A program made the position numbers and the translations under genes. A stretch of 32,974 bases of DNA, from positions 73,708 to 106,681 of the forward strand of contig MKSU01000021.1 of NCBI GenBank assembly GCA_001897375.1, given 5' to 3'. Below are positions 3,583-11,650 of the stretch, in pieces. How positions within the stretch are numbered: position 1 is the stretch's first letter; the number at the start of each line of letters is the position of its first letter. Below the pieces are notes generated by a model, which made no database searches, was not told the origin of the DNA, and was given only the letters and a program-made list of their open reading frames with translations. Source of the DNA: Sphingomonas sp. 67-36. GTDB lineage: Bacteria > Pseudomonadota > Alphaproteobacteria > Sphingomonadales > Sphingomonadaceae.

Positions 3583-4245
3583 CTATAGTGGCAGTCCGAT
3601 GGGCACCGCATCCCCCGCTTCGCTGCTCTGCCGCCGCTTCACCCACAGCTCGTCGGTGCGGGTCATCTCGATCAGATCGTCGGGAAAGCAACGGCTCTGG
3701 AACGCCACCGCATCGTCGAAACTGCCGTGGAGCCACTGCTCGTATTCGTCGGGCATGAGCAGAACCGGCATGCGGTCATGGACCGGCCGGATGGCCTCGT
3801 TGCACTCGGTCATCACCCCTGAATAGACCGGACCCCATTCATCGCTGATCCGCCACAAGCCCGCCCATGCGAAGATCGGCTGACGCTTCACGCTGAACCA
3901 GGTGCGGGTCTTCGCGCCCTTCGCTCCTTCCGCTTCGGCGAACCGGGTGACGGGAATGAGGCAGCGCCACTGCGGCTTCCGCGCCAATCCGATCCACATC
4001 GGCTTGCGCAGGTCGGCGATGTTGTTGACCGGCTTGGGCTTTGCGGTCGGCGACATGCCCTTCAGACGCAGCGGAAATCCCCACGTCATCGACTGCATGA
4101 GGCGGCCTCCGTCCTGCTCGCGCATCACGACGCCGGGCGTACCGGGATAGACCTCTTCCGGCGCGTTCGACTGGACGGGATTGGCGACCCCGAAATGGGC
4201 GGCGACCTCGGCCGCGCTCTTCCGCACCGTATAAAGATTGCACAT
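3583..4245 (-). CDS. SOS response-associated peptidase (SRAP, YedK/HMCES family)
   Basis: A 220-residue protein beginning MCNLYTVRKSAAEV. SRAP proteins form a stable thiazolidine link between Cys2 and abasic sites in single-stranded DNA and so shield them. The complete catalytic set is visible: Cys2 right after the initiator Met (removed during maturation), Asn at 74/75 (KPVNNIADL), Glu104 (CLIPVTRFAEAEG) and His156 (RPVHDRMPVLL). Length matches bacterial YedK (about 220). The gene lies leftward, away from the imu cassette. No GTTC-N7-GTTC box is seen before it, so its SOS control is unproven. A second, inactive paralogue is encoded at 5330-6001; the two share MTWGFP, RCLIP and DRMPVLL blocks. 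Confidence 0.9.
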   Translation of the reverse strand: MCNLYTVRKSAAEVAAHFGVANPVQSNAPEEVYPGTPGVVMREQDGGRLMQSMTWGFPLRLKGMSPTAKPKPVNNIADLRKPMWIGLARKPQWRCLIPVTRFAEAEGAKGAKTRTWFSVKRQPIFAWAGLWRISDEWGPVYSGVMTECNEAIRPVHDRMPVLLMPDEYEQWLHGSFDDAVAFQSRCFPDDLIEMTRTDELWVKRRQSSEAGDAVPIGLPL

Positions 4246-4305: not shown

Positions 4306-4680
4306 TCACGTCAACAACCACCAAGTGGTTGCCGCGGCGATCGCAATCCAGAGCAATACTATCACGACTGCGGCCATGGTGCTGGTGGGACGTTCAGCGC
4401 GGCGCATCGCTTCAGCTCGGAACCCCGACATGAGCTCTGAGGGAATCAACCGCACCGCCAGCCAGATCCCCGCTGGGACGATGATTGCATCATCCACGAA
4501 GCCAAGCACCGGAATGAAGTCGGGTATCAGATCGATCGGGCTCAGCGCGTATGCTGCGACCAATCCAGCAAGCGCTTTCGCGTGCCAAGGCGTCCGCCGG
4601 TCTCCCGCAGCGATCCAGAGCGCCACTACGTCGCGCTCGAGCCCTTGTACCCAGGCTTTGAGATGTGCCAACGCGATCAA
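4306..4680 (-). CDS. YkvA family membrane protein (DUF1232)
   Basis: A 124-residue protein with a TTG start at 4680. A TAG codon immediately precedes it in frame, and GAGG lies eight bases upstream, so the TTG is well supported. The core YALSPIDLIPDFIPVLGFVDDAIIV (residues about 44-68; hallmark SPIDLIPDFIPVLG) is the DUF1232/YkvA signature. A C-terminal membrane helix (AVVIVLLWIAIAAATTWWLL) follows. The function of the family is unknown; members are small integral membrane proteins. It is transcribed in the same direction as the SRAP gene, 60 bases upstream of that gene's start, so the two may share a transcript. Confidence 0.85.
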   Translation of the reverse strand: MIALAHLKAWVQGLERDVVALWIAAGDRRTPWHAKALAGLVAAYALSPIDLIPDFIPVLGFVDDAIIVPAGIWLAVRLIPSELMSGFRAEAMRRAERPTSTMAAVVIVLLWIAIAAATTWWLLT

Positions 4681-4880: not shown

Positions 4881-5288
4881 TCAGCGATGGTCGGCCGGCT
4901 TGTCGGCTTGCCAGCCGCGACCGCCCTGCTTCCCCCCTTGCGCACGCAGCCATTCGCCCAGTGGCCGGTTCGCGAGCGTGCAGTAGCCAATCACGCGGTC
5001 GTAGCTGCGGCGTCCCGCGCGGCAAGCGATCACGCGGCCGAGCGCAACGCGCTCGAGCTCCCGCTTCGCCTCCATGCCGCCGGGGTCGTGCAGCTCGGGC
5101 GCGTAATAGTCGCCCAGCCTGATCTCGATCCATTGATCAGGTCGGCCTTCGGGTCCGATGCAGAGGCCGTCGCCGTCCCCGACATAGCGCACGACCCCGC
5201 CGAACCGCGTGCCGGGCGATGGCAGGCGCCCCTCGCAGGGATCTTCCCGCGCGGGTATCGCCCACATGACAGTGATCGCCGCCGCCAT
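4881..5288 (-). CDS. Staphylococcal nuclease-like (SNase/thermonuclease) protein
   Basis: About 135 residues from ATG 5288; GTG 5294, two codons earlier, is an alternative. SNase-fold landmarks are present in order: RYVGDGDGLCIG (metal-binding Asp), WIEIRLGDYYAPEL (Arg plus Asp and Glu equivalents), and SYDRVIGYCTLANRPLGEWL (catalytic Arg before the strand). The N-terminus (AAAITVMWAIPA) is hydrophobic, but its status as a signal peptide is doubtful. The C-terminus ends in a basic, glycine-rich tail. The gene starts about 41 bases after the stop of the degenerate SRAP gene and probably shares its LexA-controlled transcript. The likely activity is calcium-dependent cleavage of DNA or RNA, by family inference. 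It is smaller than most secreted thermonucleases. Confidence 0.75.
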   Translation of the reverse strand: MAAAITVMWAIPAREDPCEGRLPSPGTRFGGVVRYVGDGDGLCIGPEGRPDQWIEIRLGDYYAPELHDPGGMEAKRELERVALGRVIACRAGRRSYDRVIGYCTLANRPLGEWLRAQGGKQGGRGWQADKPADHR

Positions 5289-5329
5289 CGACACGAGGAT
5301 GCGGCGTCGGCTTGAGCGGACAGCACGGC

Positions 5330-6001
5330 TCAGAGCGCGAACGCCATTGGCGGTCTGGCGGCGTCGGGCAACGGCGGGGGCCTGCCACTCCGCCAGCGGT
5401 CGTCGGTATGGAGGATCGCCAGCCGTTCGTCCGGCGGTGGATCGCGGAACTGGAAACCGATCACATCCTGGATCGTCCCGGTCAGCCAGCGCTCATATTC
5501 ATCAGCGGCCAGGAGCACCGGCATGCGGTCATTGAAGGGTTGAACCAGAGCGCTGGCGGTCATCGTCATGCCCGCGAACACCGGCCCGAACTCGGGTGTG
5601 TTGCGGCAGAACCCGGCCCAGGCCGCGACCGGCTGATCGACCAGCGAAAACCAGGCGCGCGTCTTGGCACCCGCCTTTCCGGCCGGATTGGCGAAATGGG
5701 TGAGCGGGATGAGGCAGCGATATCGAGGATCGACGACGAGATGCTCCCACATTGGATTCGTCAAATCGGCGACGAGGCCCAACCGGCTGGGGGCTTCGCG
5801 ACGAAGCCGGCTTTCGCTGGTATGGCGGGGAAACCCCCAGGTCATGGTCTTGAGCAAGCGACGGCCTTCTCTGTCGATGACCACGACGCCCGGGTCGCCT
5901 TCAATCGTCTCGCCCGGGATCGAGACGGGCAGGGCGGGGTCCGCCCCGAATACGGTGGCAACCTGCTGTGGCGGGGCCGCAAGGCTGAACAGCCTGGACA
6001 T
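5330..6001 (-). CDS. SRAP-family paralogue lacking all catalytic residues
   Basis: A 223-residue protein. ATG 6001 is chosen because GGAAGGA lies four bases upstream; a GTG at 6016 is in frame but would only extend the N-terminus. The fold markers of SRAP are kept: MTWGFP near 53-58, YRCLIPLTHF near 94-103, AGAKTRAWFS, and NDRMPVLLAADEYERWL near 157. Every active-site position differs from the intact copy at 3583-4245: Cys2 is Ser2 (MSRLFSL), the Asn before ADL is Leu (GLVADL), Glu104 is Asn (HFANPAG) and the HDRMP His is Asn157. It therefore cannot make the Cys-abasic-site adduct and is probably a binding or scaffold protein. A LexA box sits 42 bases upstream. Confidence 0.85.
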   Translation of the reverse strand: MSRLFSLAAPPQQVATVFGADPALPVSIPGETIEGDPGVVVIDREGRRLLKTMTWGFPRHTSESRLRREAPSRLGLVADLTNPMWEHLVVDPRYRCLIPLTHFANPAGKAGAKTRAWFSLVDQPVAAWAGFCRNTPEFGPVFAGMTMTASALVQPFNDRMPVLLAADEYERWLTGTIQDVIGFQFRDPPPDERLAILHTDDRWRSGRPPPLPDAARPPMAFAL

Positions 6002-6042
6002 CGAATCCTTCCGCACATCGACTCACCGGTACCAATAGCACA

Positions 6043-6057
6043 GAACATAGACGGAAC
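6043..6057 (-). promoter_or_regulatory. LexA box upstream of the degenerate SRAP gene
   Basis: On the minus strand GTTC-CGTCTAT-GTTC, an exact match to the alphaproteobacterial SOS box GTTC-N7-GTTC. It is 41 bases before the ATG of the SRAP paralogue and just after the dnaE2 stop, so that gene and the nuclease gene can be damage-induced independently of the imu transcript. Confidence 0.85.
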
Positions 6058-6065
6058 AGAAGCCG

Positions 6066-9000
6066 TTACCGAAAATCCCGCGGCTTGACCTTGATGCCTT
6101 CGGTCGGCTGGCCGGGAATGATGCCTGAACCGAGCCGGAGATCCGGAATGTAGATATCGCGGGGCGCGCGACCTAACGGACGTTCGGCGGGATCGCGCGG
6201 GTCAGGCCCGACCGGGTTCTTGGCGACATCGGCCCGGCTGGTCCGATAGATATCGGCCACATCGCTGCGGTTGCCCACGCTGGCGAGCAGCGGCGACAGA
6301 TCGTCGAGCCGATGCGCGATCAGGTGGATCACCTCGCCCTCACGCTGGACCTGGCCGCGCACGCCTATCATCGATGCGCCGAGCACCGTCCGCCGGTTCG
6401 CCTCGAACACCTTGGTCCAGACGACGAGATTGGCGACGTCGGTCTCGTCCTCGAGCGTGATGAACATCACACCCTTGGCCGAACCCGGCTTCTGGCGGAC
6501 GAGCACGATTCCGGCGAGTTCGACGTAGCGCCCGTCCCTGACGGTCTGCAGCGCCTCGCAGGTGATCATCCGCCGCGTCGTCAGCTCGTCGCGCAGGAAC
6601 GCAAGCGGATGGGCGCGCAGGCTCAGGCCCGAGGCGCGATAATCCTCGACCACCTCGGCACCGTCACCCATTGGCGCCAGGATCACCTCCGGCTCGATCG
6701 CTTCCTGCCGCAGCTTGCCATCGTGCGCGTCGGCCGCCGCAAACAGGGGAAGGGCAGCATCGCCGAGCCCTTTGACGTCCCACAATCCCTTCCGTCGACT
6801 CGCGCCGACCGACCCGAACCCGTCCGCGTCGCCGATCCGGTCGAGCGCCCCGCGCCCGACGCCGGCACGACGCTGGACCTCCTCGACGCTCGCATACGGG
6901 TCATCGCCGCGTGCGGCGACGATCGCGGCGGCATCCGCGTTGGACAGGTCGCGCGCCATTCGCAGACCGAGGCGGACCGCCTTGTACCGCCCGTTGCTGA
7001 CCTCCAGCGTGCAGTCCCAGCGGCTCGAATTGACGTCCATCGGGCGGATCTCGACGCCGTGCTGGCGGGCATCGCGCACGATCTGCGCGGGGGCGTAGAA
7101 GCCCATCGGCTGGGCGTTGAGCAACGCCGCGCAGAACGCGTCGGGATGATGGCATTTCATCCACGACGAGGCGTAGGCGATCAGCGCGAAGCTCGCGGCG
7201 TGGCTTTCGGGAAAGCCGTAGGAGCCAAACCCCTCGATCTGCTTGAAGGTCTTCTCGGCAAAGTCGCGCTCGTAGCCGCGCGTGACCATACCCTCTATCA
7301 GTTGCCCTCGAAAATGCGAGACGCCGCCGGTCAGCTTGAAGGTCGCCATCGCCCGCCGGAGCAGGTCTGCCTCGGACGCGGTGAACCCCGCACACTCGAT
7401 CGCGACCCGCATCGCCTGCTCCTGGAACAGTGGCACGCCCAGCGTCTTCTCGAGCACGCGGCGCAGCTCGGGGGTCGGGTAGGTCACTTCCTCCTGCCCG
7501 TTGCGGCGGCGGCGATAGGGGTGGACCATGTCGCCCTGGATCGGTCCGGGCCGGACGATCGCGACCTGGATGACAAGATCGTAGAACGTGCGCGGCGCCA
7601 TCAGCGGGATTGACGCCATCTGCGCCCGGCTCTCGATCTGGAAGACGCCCAAGGTGTCGGCCTTGCGGATCATCGCATAGGTCGCCGGATCCTCCGCCGG
7701 GATGGTTGCGAGGTCGACCTTCACGCCTTTGTCGGTTCCAAGAAACTCGAAGGCGCGGCGCATGCACGACAGCATGCCCAGCGCGAGCACGTCGACCTTC
7801 ATGAAGCCCAACGCGTCGATATCGTCCTTATCCCATTCGATGACCTGGCGATCCTCCATCGCCGCCGGCTCGATCGGCACCAGCTCGTCGAGGCGGTCGC
7901 GGGTCAGCACGAAGCCGCCGGGATGTTGCGACAGGTGGCGCGGGGTGTTGATGAGCAGCCGCGCCAGTTCGAGCGTCAGCGCCAGGCGGCGATCACCGAG
8001 ATCCAAGTTGAGCTCTTCGGCGTGTTTCTCTTCGACGCCTTCCCGGCTCCAGCCCCACACCGACGACGACAGCCCTGCGGTCATGTCCTCGGACAGCCCG
8101 AGCGCCTTGCCGACCTCGCGCACCGCGCCGCGCGCGCGGTAGCGCGTGACGACCGCGGTCAGGGCGCTGCGCGTCCGGCCATAGGTATCATAGATCCACT
8201 GGATCACTTCCTCGCGGCGCTCGTGCTCGAAATCGACGTCGATGTCGGGCGGCTCGCGGCGCTCGGCCGAGACGAAGCGCTCGAACAGCAGCTCGGAGCG
8301 CACCGGATCGATCGAGGTGATGCCAAGAACGTAGCAGACCGCCGAGTTCGCCGCCGAGCCGCGCCCCTGGCACAGGATGTCCTTGCTCCGCGCGAACGCG
8401 ACGATCGAATGAACGGTCAGAAAATAGGGCGCATAATCGAGCTGGGCGATCAAGCGGAGTTCATGCGCCAACTGCGCACGGACCTTTCCGTCCAGGCCCT
8501 CGGGATACCGCTCGGGCGCCCTTGCCCAGGTCAACCGCTCCAGCTCCTGCTGCGGCGTCCGACCCGGCACACGGATTTCGTCGGGATATTGGTATTTGAG
8601 TTCGTCGAGGCTGAAGGCGCAGCGCGCGGCCAGCTCGGCGCTGCGCGCGACCGGCCCCGTGTCCTCCAGGTAGCGGCGGAACAGTCGTTCCATTTCCTGC
8701 CCCGTCTTGAGATGGCGGTCGGCGATGCGCTCGCGTCGATCGCCGAGCTCGTCGATCGTGCATTTCTCGCGGATGCAGGTGACGACATCCTGCAGCAGCC
8801 GGCGATCGGGCGAATGGTAAAGAACGTCGCCGGTCGCGACCGTCGGCACGCGCGCCGCCGCCGCGATGGCCGCCAGGTCTCGCAACCGCACCGCGTCGCG
8901 CGGTTGGCGGCGGATCGTCAAGGCGAGATAGGCCCGGTCGGCGAAAATGCGCCGGGTTCGCGCCAGCGCCGCCTCGGCCGTCGCATCGGCGCGATCGGGC

Positions 9001-9398
9001 GCGAGCATCGCGATCAGCCCGTCGCTCCAGTCCTCGACGTCGGCCCAGTCGAGGTGGCACGCGCCCTTGCCGGCGCGGCCCTTGCCGATGCTGAGCAGCC
9101 GGCACATCCGACCATAGGCCAAGCGGTCGGTCGGATAGACCAGCAGCGCCGTGCCGTCGGTCAGGTCGAGGCGGCACCCGACGATCGCGCGTACGCCGGT
9201 GGTCTTCGCTGCATCCCACGCGCGGACGATGCCCGCGACAGAGTTGCGATCGACGATCCCGATCGCCGGCAGGTCGAGCAAGGCCGCCGCGGCGAACAGT
9301 TCGTCGGGGGACGATGCGCCGCGCAGGAAGCTGAAGTGGGTCGTGACCTGCAGCTCGACATAACGGGCCTCGCGATCTGACCGGTCGCCGCGCGTCAC
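6066..9398 (-). CDS. dnaE2: Error-prone DNA polymerase DnaE2 (ImuC)
   Basis: A 1110-residue protein with GTG start at 9398, in a GTGA overlap with the imuB stop. The frame is open well upstream, but that part is the shadow of imuB. The N-terminal PHP domain starts with [18 protein letters not shown]. The C-family polymerase palm is marked by [15 protein letters not shown] near residue 383 (catalytic Asp pair) and [13 protein letters not shown] near 530 (third Asp). The C-terminal part carries the helix-hairpin-helix and OB-fold regions ([26 protein letters not shown], in two pieces around residues 955-980). Length fits DnaE2, shorter than the replicative DnaE1. It performs translesion synthesis with ImuA and ImuB, reached through the beta clamp. 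It looks intact. Confidence 0.96.
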
Positions 9399-10951
9399 GC
9401 GAACGCGCCATGGATGAACCAGCGCATGGGGCCCGTCACGGCATTCTCGCCGTCGCCCAGGCGGAACAGCCAGTAGCGGCCGCCGTTCGTCGTCTCGACC
9501 TGGAAGTAGTCGCGCACGGTTAAGGGGCGATTGGTTTCGGCGCCGGCGTCGCGCCACCATTCGCCATGAAGCCGCTCGGGACCGTCGGCCTGGGTTACGC
9601 GGAAGCGCTTGCCCCGCCAGACGAACATCGCTGGGGGGTGGTCTGGCAGCATGGCGGTCACGTCGATCGGTTCGGGCGCAACCAGCATCCGACCGGGCCG
9701 CGGAAGATCGGCGTTCCACGCCGCGCCGCCAGCGTCCGACAGCGCCGGCGCGCACCTGACCGAGCGCTCGGGCATCGCGCTCGGTTGCGGCGTCGTGCGG
9801 TAGAGGCACCGCTGTCCGAAGCGATTGGCGAGCGCGTCGACCAGCGCGGACAGGTCGGGGCCGCCGCGCACGAGACTCTCGAGGCCTTCGCCCTGGCTCG
9901 CGCCAAGCGGTTCGACCAGCGGCGCCACCAGCGTCATCGCCTCGATGCCGAGGCCGGGATCCACGCCCTCGATCTTCGCGGCAAGCAGCTTGGCGAAATG
10001 GTGCGGCGCGCGGGAGGGAGCGGCGGTGCCGACGCGGATCGCCTGGGTGTGACCGTCGACGCGGTGGAAGTGGCAATCGAGCCTGCGCGCTCCCTTTCCG
10101 GCCTCCACCAATTGCCCGGCGACGTCAGCGGCGAGGTCGCGGATGACCTGGGCGAAGGCCTCGGCGGTCGAGAGTGGTTCCATGAACCCGCGGCGCGCAC
10201 GCGGCATTGCGTCGGGAAAGACCGGCTCGACCGGTTCGGGCGTATGTCCGAGCGCCTGGTCGAGGCGGCGATGCAAGGTTCGTCCGAAGCGCTTGGCGAG
10301 GGGACCGCGCGGGGTGCCGATCAGCTGCTCGATCCGGTCGAAGCCGAGCTTCCGCAAGCCCTCGACCACGCCGGGTTCGAGGCGTAGCGCGGCGACCGGC
10401 AGCAGCTCCAGCGCTTTGCGATGGTCGCCGGGTTCGATCGTGACGGGCCGGCCGGCGAGCACATGGCGCGCCACTGCGTGCGCACAGCCCGCAGTATCGG
10501 CGACGGCGATCTGCACGGAGAGACCGAACGCCGCGAGACGGCGATGCAGGTCCTTGATCAGCGCGCGCTCGGTATCGAACAGCGAAGCGCATCCGGTGAT
10601 GTCGAGCCAGAGGCCATCGGGCGGGTCGGGTGCGACAATCGGCGCGTAGCGCTGGCCCGCCCAAAGCGCCAGACGCCCCAATCCGACGAAATCAGCTTCC
10701 GGATCGGCGTCGATCACTTCGAGGCCCGGCGCGAACGACCGCGCCTTGGTGACCGTCATGCCGGGCGCGATACCGAGCGCCCGCGCGCCGACATCGACCG
10801 CCGCGACGATGCGCCGGCCGTGATCGGGAATCGCGGTGACGAGCGCCGGCGCCGCCGGTACCGTGCGGCCGTCAGGCGGCGGCTTGGCGGTCTTCCGTCG
10901 CAACCGGTCGGTCGACCAGTGCGGCAGATAGACCGATGCGACCCTGCGCAT
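9395..10951 (-). CDS. imuB: ImuB, catalytically inactive Y-family polymerase-like protein
   Basis: A 518-residue protein whose ATG (10951) lies inside the end of imuA (80-base overlap), the usual arrangement. The N-terminus [19 protein letters not shown] replaces the catalytic DxD-bearing motif of true Y-family polymerases, and [13 protein letters not shown] occupies the second acidic site region, as expected for ImuB. The fingers/palm-like and little-finger-like parts follow. In the known pathway ImuB is the hub that binds the beta clamp, ImuA and DnaE2; the C-terminal third carries the interaction regions. The product ends [10 protein letters not shown] and overlaps dnaE2 by four bases, so the cassette is one transcript from the LexA-controlled imuA promoter. 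Confidence 0.94.
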
Positions 10952-11603
10952 CGCACCCCTCCACGATCCATTGACGAGGTTCGCCGCCGCGCACCCGCTC
11001 GAGCGCCACCTGCCAGCGCGGGCGGCCGAGGCTGGGGATGCTGAGCGCCTCGCTCGGCGCGGCGCTGATGCGCCAGCGCGTCAGCGCGGCCGTGCCTTCG
11101 ACCGTTGCCTCGGCCCGCGACGCGCGCCTGAAGACGAAGGCGGTGACGCCGGAGGCTTCGGCGGCGAGCTGAAGCCGCTTGGAGGCCGTCGTCGAATATT
11201 TCGTGATTTCGCCGACGACGCCGGCCAGGCCCCGATGACGGAGGCATTCCTCCATTGCCAGCAGGACGTTGGTGTCGCTGCCCGCCTCGACATGGATCAC
11301 GCGATCGGGATGTAAGCCTGCGAGATGCAGCGCCGGGGCAAACAGATCGCGCCAGCGGAGGCACCAGAAGACCGGGCCGTCGACTCGCGCGAGGATGCCG
11401 GCGAGGAAGATCGTGGCACTGGCGTCGTCGGCCAGATCGACGCTGCCCGCGACTTCATGAAGGGCGCCGGCCGCCAAACCACCACCAGGGAGATACCGAT
11501 CGAGCGCATCCACGCCGAACGGAATTGCCGCTTGTCGCGCAGCGGAGCCCTCGAGCTCGGCGATGCGAGCGCGCAATTCGGCAAGGGCGGACGGTTCACG
11601 CAT
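10872..11603 (-). CDS. imuA: ImuA, RecA-like mutasome protein
   Basis: A 243-residue protein. ATG 11603 (MREPSALAELRARIAELEG) is preferred to the longer open frame because the LexA box at 11636-11650 lies just upstream and would otherwise be inside the gene. The sequence follows ImuA/SulA-like RecA relatives: GVDALDRYLPGGGLAAGALHE, FLAGILARVDGPVFWCLRWRD (two pieces between residues about 30 and 80), and RVIHVEAGSDTNVLLAMEE. No intact Walker A motif is seen, which is usual for ImuA. It interacts with RecA and ImuB to start translesion synthesis. No strong ribosome site precedes the ATG. Confidence 0.9.
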   Translation of the reverse strand: MREPSALAELRARIAELEGSAARQAAIPFGVDALDRYLPGGGLAAGALHEVAGSVDLADDASATIFLAGILARVDGPVFWCLRWRDLFAPALHLAGLHPDRVIHVEAGSDTNVLLAMEECLRHRGLAGVVGEITKYSTTASKRLQLAAEASGVTAFVFRRASRAEATVEGTAALTRWRISAAPSEALSIPSLGRPRWQVALERVRGGEPRQWIVEGCDAQGRIGLSAALVDRPVATEDRQAAA

Positions 11604-11635: not shown

Positions 11636-11650
11636 GTTCCCTATCTGTTC
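11636..11650 (-). promoter_or_regulatory. LexA box of the imuA-imuB-dnaE2 operon
   Basis: Minus strand GAAC-AGATAGG-GAAC (plus strand GTTC-N7-GTTC), an exact alphaproteobacterial SOS box, 32 bases upstream of imuA. It indicates repression by LexA and induction after DNA damage, as known for this cassette in Caulobacter and relatives. Confidence 0.9.

Follow-up and report, generated by a model that had tools for sequence, protein, structure and literature searches.

A SRAP paralogue lacking the four catalytic residues, encoded with an active SRAP and under a predicted LexA operator in Sphingomonas and its relatives

What can a SRAP protein do when the residues of its chemistry are gone, and why is such a protein encoded next to an SOS mutagenesis cassette? 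In the SRAP family (PF02586), whose enzymes include E. coli YedK and human HMCES, Cys2 has been taken as the defining residue; Aravind et al. 2013 (PMC3765255) call it absolutely conserved and place a conserved Asn, Glu and His after it. A gene that departs from this definition lies in a stretch of 32,974 nucleotides from Sphingomonas sp. 67-36, the whole of which is called the window. The features around it are the following.

3583 to 4245, minus strand: active SRAP partner, 220 residues, keeping Cys2, Asn, Glu and His by residue comparison.
4306 to 4680, minus strand: DUF1232 protein, between the nuclease-like gene and the active SRAP.
4881 to 5294, minus strand: protein of staphylococcal nuclease (SNase) fold by model and fold search, with a signal-peptide-like start; no conserved part of the type-1 pair.
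5330 to 6001, minus strand: inactive SRAP paralogue (type 1) by its SRAP fold, 223 residues, starting MSRLF.
6007 to 6012, minus strand: GGAAGG, Shine-Dalgarno-like, five bases before the ATG of the inactive SRAP, read by eye.
6043 to 6057, minus strand: LexA box GTTC-N7-GTTC of the inactive SRAP gene.
6066 to 9370, minus strand: dnaE2 (imuC), error-prone polymerase, start approximate.
9395 to 10951, minus strand: imuB.
10872 to 11603, minus strand: imuA by homology, with a probable start at MREPSAL.
11636 to 11650, minus strand (that of the operon): LexA-type box before imuA; the GTTC-N7-GTTC motif reads on the plus strand.

The protein encoded at 5330-6001 retains the SRAP fold, as an earlier note on this DNA had held, and alignment to YedK bears out all four residue losses named there: Ser2 stands in place of Cys2, Leu76 of Asn75, Asn105 of Glu105 and Asn157 of His160. 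The intact copy that the note placed about 1 kb away is equally real, with all four residues kept at 3583-4245 and 1,084 bp between the two genes, and imuA-imuB-dnaE2 does lie directly upstream of the inactive gene. In YedK, the C2A and C2S variants act as lyases through Glu105 and His160 (PMC9436759). Because all four catalytic residues of YedK are gone, both DNA crosslinking and lyase activity are unlikely in the inactive SRAP; a thiazolidine crosslink would not be expected, nor would a Schiff-base lyase step such as that of C2A/C2S YedK.

The same replacements recur throughout a family of homologues, termed type 1. Among 84 distinct inactive proteins, the window's included, Cys never occurs at residue 2 (78 Ser, 4 Ala, 2 Thr), Asn never at the Asn75 site (78 Leu, 5 Met, 1 Cys), Glu never at the Glu105 site (81 Asn, one each of Asp, His and Leu) and His never at the His160 site (81 Asn, one each of Asp, Ala and Ser). 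Since the peptide patterns used to find the 80 named loci contained the new Asn, these counts are biased towards it; among 27 distinct proteins identified through similarity alone, the residues are [SAT][LM]NN in 26, the exception being the cut-short copy of G057. The 110 active-type SRAPs, paired and unpaired, carry Cys in 110, Asn in 108, Glu in 110 and His in 106 of the 108 that reach the site. Arg162 is kept in 83 of the 84 type-1 proteins, and the Arg77 position is Ala both in type 1 and in its active partners. In the tree, the inactive proteins form a single clade on a long stem (SH-aLRT 95, 42 rows), the clustering that the earlier note had proposed to look for.

The protein sets differ slightly between counts. 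The 84 proteins of the residue count include L026, L020, L066 and L040, the last with an odd start; proteins without a clean frame are left out, and no clean full-length inactive frame is present in L115, L146, L161 and L048, while the G057 copy is cut short. The count of 81 omits L026 (not type 1), L020 (cut short) and L066 (partial), and the sets of 80, used for dN/dS and fixed residues, omit L040 too. From 111 distinct active-type proteins, 110 (longer than 50 residues) serve for residues, 108 (longer than 190) for tails and 87 closer ones for fixed residues. The divergent L026, at L186:8338-8919 in G132, is a lone SRAP with Thr2, Cys76, Leu105 and Ser157; no second SRAP, LexA box or imu gene was detected in the 17 kb of that locus.

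What is conserved beside the type-1 inactive SRAP is an active-type SRAP rather than the SNase-like gene. Scored by tblastn, 77 of the 80 named loci have an active-type SRAP; it lies downstream in the same orientation in 76 and upstream in one, and the gap between the two genes is below 100 bp in 51 loci and below 2 kb in 69. The loci without it are L140 and L159, where the roughly 10 kb downstream hold no active-type SRAP, and L153, where the contig ends 188 bp past the gene. The partner is broken into pieces in L145 and L146, and its His is Asn in L034. Distances among inactive proteins and among their partners correlate (75 loci, r 0.46, reached by none of 2000 permutations), a figure to which shared ancestry may contribute and which is favoured by the omission of L087, whose partner comes from another clade. 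Members of the active clade that lack a full-length inactive neighbour are found in G053, G026 and G023; in G023, a 47-residue stretch resembling the inactive N-terminus lies just upstream of the active SRAP, perhaps as a remnant. The inactive and active SRAPs very probably form a functional unit.

Both genes of the pair appear to be tied to the SOS response. The perfect LexA box that had been ascribed to the inactive gene is in place: GTTCCGTCTATGTTC, at 6043-6057 on the minus strand, is located 41 bp before the ATG and just past the dnaE2 stop. GTTC-N7-GTTC is the LexA motif of the alphaproteobacteria (PMC3323433) and of Caulobacter (PMC9578287). The second exact copy in the window lies 32 bp before the probable imuA start, which is put at MREPSAL because the box sits inside the longer open reading frame. 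Since the number of boxes alone is unsurprising (two found against 0.98 expected, with 29 of 100 shuffles reaching two), the evidence resides in their position and recurrence. A box within 150 bp upstream is found for 37 of 81 distinct inactive genes, against a mean of 0.3 and a maximum of 2 in shuffles, and in 35 of the 37 it falls 32-61 bp upstream; none of 107 active-type SRAP genes has one within the same 150 bp. On this difference, the active gene is probably read from the promoter of the inactive gene. The remaining 44 of the 81 inactive genes lack a box of their own within 150 bp, and many of them come after imuABC with its box; for L042 and L047, the upstream 1 kb holds no LexA box and the available stretch no imu gene. 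The position of the operator suggests that the inactive SRAP gene belongs to the alphaproteobacterial LexA regulon, and induction by DNA damage is predicted.

SRAPs without the Cys are not confined to type 1. A search with a second type as query matched 37 of 298 genomes, a number that takes in ordinary SRAPs among the weaker matches. In its 15 best loci (L187-L201), the Cys-less gene is divergent from an active SRAP that starts M/VCNDY, and a LexA box lies between them in 15 of 15; the Cys-less gene is broken in L197 and L201, which are kept in this count and left out of the tail count. Across 16 type-2 proteins, the Asn is replaced by Phe (15) or Ala (1), the Glu by Met (9), Val (4), Leu (2) or Ile (1) and the His by Gln (15) or Arg (1), with Arg77 and Arg162 kept in all 16 and residue 2 unaligned in all 16. 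Type 3 comprises five proteins (L203, L204, L205, L207 and L208), each situated before an adjoining Cys-containing SRAP on the same strand; its Asn, Glu and His positions hold Leu, Ile/Val/Leu and Lys, position 77 is Arg or Lys, and Arg162 is present in five of five. Neither type can be aligned over the N-terminal part that contains residue 2. In a rapidly built tree, in which YedK forms a long branch, type 1 falls inside the NLY-type active SRAPs (support 98 for the group with outliers, 91-93 at the inner forks) and types 2 and 3 stand together elsewhere (91). Because they are placed apart, inactive SRAPs probably arose at least twice.

How, then, would an inactive SRAP serve its active partner? 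The account that we favour, by a modest margin over doubt, is that of an SOS-induced, non-crosslinking DNA binder that acts at stalled forks and tunes the active SRAP. A non-covalent binder is preferred because the DNA-binding fold remains and is encoded with an active SRAP, often with a translesion polymerase, and with LexA-type boxes. After DNA damage, both SRAPs would be made together; the inactive one would bind single-stranded DNA or template-primer junctions at stalled forks with no covalent crosslink, tethered in many relatives to the sliding clamp through its C-terminal tail, and would limit, hand over or reverse the action of the active partner so that the ImuABC polymerase could pass the lesion. 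The parts of this account differ in strength. Binding to DNA without chemistry is reasonably probable, given the fold and the kept residues from which it is proposed, and tuning of the partner is a tentative suggestion; we infer the former from the fold and the latter from the former. A comparable arrangement exists within the mutasome, where ImuB, a dead Y-family polymerase, and the RecA-like ImuA are likewise inactive members that partner a working SOS enzyme (PMC3765255, PMC9578287). The folds there are different ones; here the dead and live proteins belong to one superfamily and are encoded by neighbouring genes.

The proposed tether derives from the extreme C-terminus. Of the 81 type-1 proteins, 50 have Q..[LM][LFIMV] or Q..[LM].[LFI] as their final residues; shuffling the last 20 residues gives 0.32 on average and at most 3. 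The tail upstream of the motif varies, with 40 different 14-residue tails among 49 proteins that have Gln at -5. Such an ending is also present in 14 of 16 type-2 proteins, 8 of 17 of the MCNDY class and 14 of 108 in the first active-type set, and in none of the 5 type-3 proteins. These tails resemble the bacterial clamp-binding motifs QL[SD]LF (PMC9690074) and QxxLF (PMC12926913). A draw over the phylum recovered 28 of 29 SRAP loci, and 8 of the 28 SRAPs (L220, L222, L224, L226, L228, L231, L233 and L234) end in a clamp-like motif such as QLSLF, QMSLF, QGSLF or QGTLF; the motif as a mark of inactive copies alone was rejected on this count. The window's inactive SRAP ends PPMAFAL, without the Gln of the motif and unlike QxxLF, and the Gln is also absent from the inactive tails of Rhizobiaceae (RRDNMLM and the like). 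Clamp binding is therefore not universal, since these copies lack the Gln and type 3 has no such tail at all. If the tails do bind the clamp, tethering would be widespread among bacterial SRAPs, in parallel with the PCNA motif that is assumed for HMCES, and would explain how bacterial SRAPs find forks. In the few papers that a narrow term match brought up, neither a sliding clamp nor a beta clamp is mentioned.

A first alternative places the function in protein contact: the inactive SRAP would be a regulatory subunit or antagonist of the active one, as heterodimer partner, inhibitor or release factor, and would not bind DNA itself. The one-sided dependence is in keeping with it, as the inactive gene is found with an active-type SRAP nearly everywhere and the active gene lacks a full-length inactive neighbour in three genomes, and so is the recurrence of pairing with other partner clades (L087; type 2 with MCNDY-type SRAPs). 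The same exchange of partner clade speaks against a specialised interface, and so does the fact that SRAPs are known as monomers. We regard direct contact without DNA binding as unlikely, though it is the best placed of the alternatives.

A second alternative, to which we assign a somewhat smaller chance, is that the pocket has been rebuilt (Ser2, Arg3, Leu76, Asn105, Pro106, Cys132, Asn134 and Asn157) into a new enzyme that catalyses a different reaction: the free amine of Ser2 might form a Schiff base, for instance, or some other base or sugar lesion might be repaired. The pocket is indeed conserved in its new form. Arg3, Glu34, Arg59, Gly75, Asn82, Cys132 and Asn134, among others, are nearly fixed in the inactive proteins and rare in the active clade; positions 3, 75, 105 and 157 are at 99-100% and Cys132 at 90% in 80 inactive proteins, and each of these residues occurs in at most 10% of 87 active-type proteins. 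At residue 2, all 84 proteins have Ser, Ala or Thr, which are small and permit removal of the initiator Met. YedK C2A and C2S, moreover, still make a Schiff base (PMC9436759). Against this, the Schiff-base and lyase steps of YedK depend strongly on Glu105, here Asn, and its ring opening needs Glu105 and His160, both lost here (PMC9436759). The Leu at the Asn75 site and the missing acid-base groups suggest that no such chemistry takes place, and the residue-2 stretch is unalignable in types 2 and 3.

The neighbouring polymerase genes raise a third alternative, which we consider improbable: the inactive SRAP would serve the ImuABC mutasome as an accessory subunit, much as UmuD does for UmuC. SRAP genes beside imuABC have been described (PMC3765255), and PMC12926913 lists SRAP-like proteins with UmuC-like polymerases and proposes them as regulatory partners; the published link, as listed there, is to UmuC-like polymerases and not to ImuABC. 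The synteny foreseen in the earlier note holds for imuABC, as at least one of imuA, imuB and dnaE2 is in the flank of 48 of the 80 loci, and fails for the SNase-like gene, present in one. All three imu genes lie upstream on the same strand in 19 of the 80, and the order imuA-imuB-dnaE2-inactive-active on one strand is found in 18 of 25 Rhizobiales loci, where the SRAP pair forms the tail of the cassette. The pair shares its neighbourhood and LexA-type box with the ImuA-ImuB-DnaE2 cassette, plasmid-borne rhizobial examples included (PMC4151985); SRAP, DUF159 and peptidase are unmentioned in the main text of that paper. On the conjugative plasmid pAtCFBP5507a, the operon imuA-imuB-dnaE2-SRAP-SRAP is annotated as such. 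Unlike a cassette member, the pair also occurs without imu genes nearby: 32 of the 80 loci have none in the flank (up to 10 kb a side, less at contig ends), the imu genes of Sphingobium pTK4 are divergent from the pair, and the 14.6 kb surrounding the pair on pTB1 contain no annotated imu gene, the pair there being flanked by AbiE and T4SS genes to one side and by a relaxase gene to the other.

The adjacent nuclease-like gene was the partner put forward in the earlier note, in which the inactive SRAP guides or restrains the SNase-like protein. The gene is as described there, on the same strand, 35 bp downstream of the inactive SRAP and of SNase fold: the predicted model (pLDDT 85.2) matches Tudor-SN (E 1.4e-5) and staphylococcal nuclease (7.2e-4) in Foldseek at a TM-score of about 0.55, and no sequence match was found in Pfam, NCBIfam or PDB. 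R59, E67 and R100 are invariant in 9 of 9 aligned members and presumably correspond to the catalytic residues of SNase. Unlike staphylococcal nuclease, the family has no Pfam match, holds Tyr, Asp or Asn at the position that we take as the counterpart of Asp40, and starts with a signal-peptide-like N-terminus in the nine members, judged by eye. Because this start resembles an export signal, the protein fits poorly as a partner at the fork. The family also has three invariant Cys in the nine aligned members, and 14 of the 151 genomes from the genus hold matches to it, of which 10 are strong.

The pairing itself does not hold up for type 1. By tblastn, the SNase-like gene is present in the window and in one of the 80 named loci, L082, on a G079 contig identical to the window's, and none was found in the other type-1 regions searched; it was rejected as a conserved type-1 partner. 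The DUF1232 gene has the same distribution (1 of 80, L082). The broader idea of an SNase-like protein with a Cys-less SRAP survives in part. In G119, G072 and G118, relatives of the gene stand on the downstream side of a different Cys-less SRAP that has a LexA box; an AlkB-like gene comes next, and imu genes are adjacent; the AlkB-like copy matches Pfam 2OG-FeII_Oxy_2 in G072 and is only a fragment in G118. Beside type-2 SRAPs, relatives are seen in 2 of the 15 loci found through the SRAP (L188 and L191; 1.5 kb flanks) and in three loci found through the nuclease (L178-L180), with a LexA box in both groups; in L181-L185, five of the eight other fetched loci, no SRAP was detected. The regions L178:7529-9423 and L179:7238-9187 hold N-terminally short Cys-less SRAPs of the second kind, with imuA nearby at some such loci. 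A role in guiding or restraining this nuclease is thus very improbable for the type-1 protein.

Decay into a functionless duplicate, for which the loss of all catalytic residues and a few truncated or frameshifted copies could be cited, is practically ruled out by the dN/dS of the inactive genes (median 0.09, largest 0.225 in 148 pairs of identity above 75% and dS of 0.1-1.5), the nearly fixed replacement residues, the conserved gene order and the recurrent operator. The active-type genes give a median of 0.125 and a maximum of 0.308 over 400 pairs. Purifying selection, which the earlier note had made a touchstone, is thus evident, and the case made there against simple decay stands.

The inactive type is present in 15 of 151 genomes of the genus; it is broken in G103 and G057 and lacks the usual start in G113. 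Further hosts are Sphingobium, Sphingopyxis, Rhizobium, Neorhizobium, Agrobacterium, Phenylobacterium and Erwinia oleae, and Shinella plasmids give inactive-type matches by identity alone. In 240 genomes drawn over the class, no type-1 SRAP was found at E 1e-70 except in G000. A spread beyond Sphingomonadaceae and Rhizobiaceae was rejected on this draw, Phenylobacterium and Erwinia oleae being the named exceptions. In PLSDB, 43 plasmids match the inactive SRAP at E 1e-20, and 27 of the 43 are typed conjugative; the best 25 of the 43 rows have 92% query coverage and 54.9-62.6% identity, and 24 of these show two matching places. Type 2 or its kin, ordinary SRAPs included, matches 154 plasmid records, among them R. 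etli p42f, where it lies beside dinB and imuABC, and an S. psychrotolerans plasmid, where it is near xth and a MobF relaxase.

The pair points to an undescribed two-protein damage-tolerance module in bacteria and plasmids; among titles and abstracts of the open literature, inactive SRAPs, SRAPs with imu genes and plasmid SRAPs were not found described. In a wider and more speculative form, which we hold possible but short of probable, active/inactive SRAP pairs would be a damage-tolerance module of general occurrence, mobile and under SOS control, with two or more origins in Alphaproteobacteria. C-terminal clamp motifs would bring both proteins to the replication fork, where the inactive one, by binding the lesion without chemistry, would choose between covalent protection and mutagenic bypass. 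A conserved inactive partner of two or more origins would mean that SRAP action has a regulatory or non-covalent side, for the study of which these pairs offer small operons. Some of the modules travel on conjugative plasmids together with mutagenesis cassettes and may shape survival and mutation after transfer.

Annotation is affected as well. The SRAP in the inactive position on pAtCFBP5507a (L162:9001-9666), 62.6% identical to the window's protein, carries the GO term protein-DNA covalent cross-linking, a chemistry that this type can hardly perform. Two further readings were considered and rejected: a defence role, as neither of the two SRAPs nor the nuclease-like protein matched in PADLOC, and a phage origin, as 50,697 records gave three weak matches of 25.8-31.3% identity. 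At 65-2512, the window holds an AbiEii toxin gene with genes for an Xre/MbcA-type antitoxin and a RES-domain toxin after it, and an AbiE pair lies beside the SRAP pair on pTB1 too.
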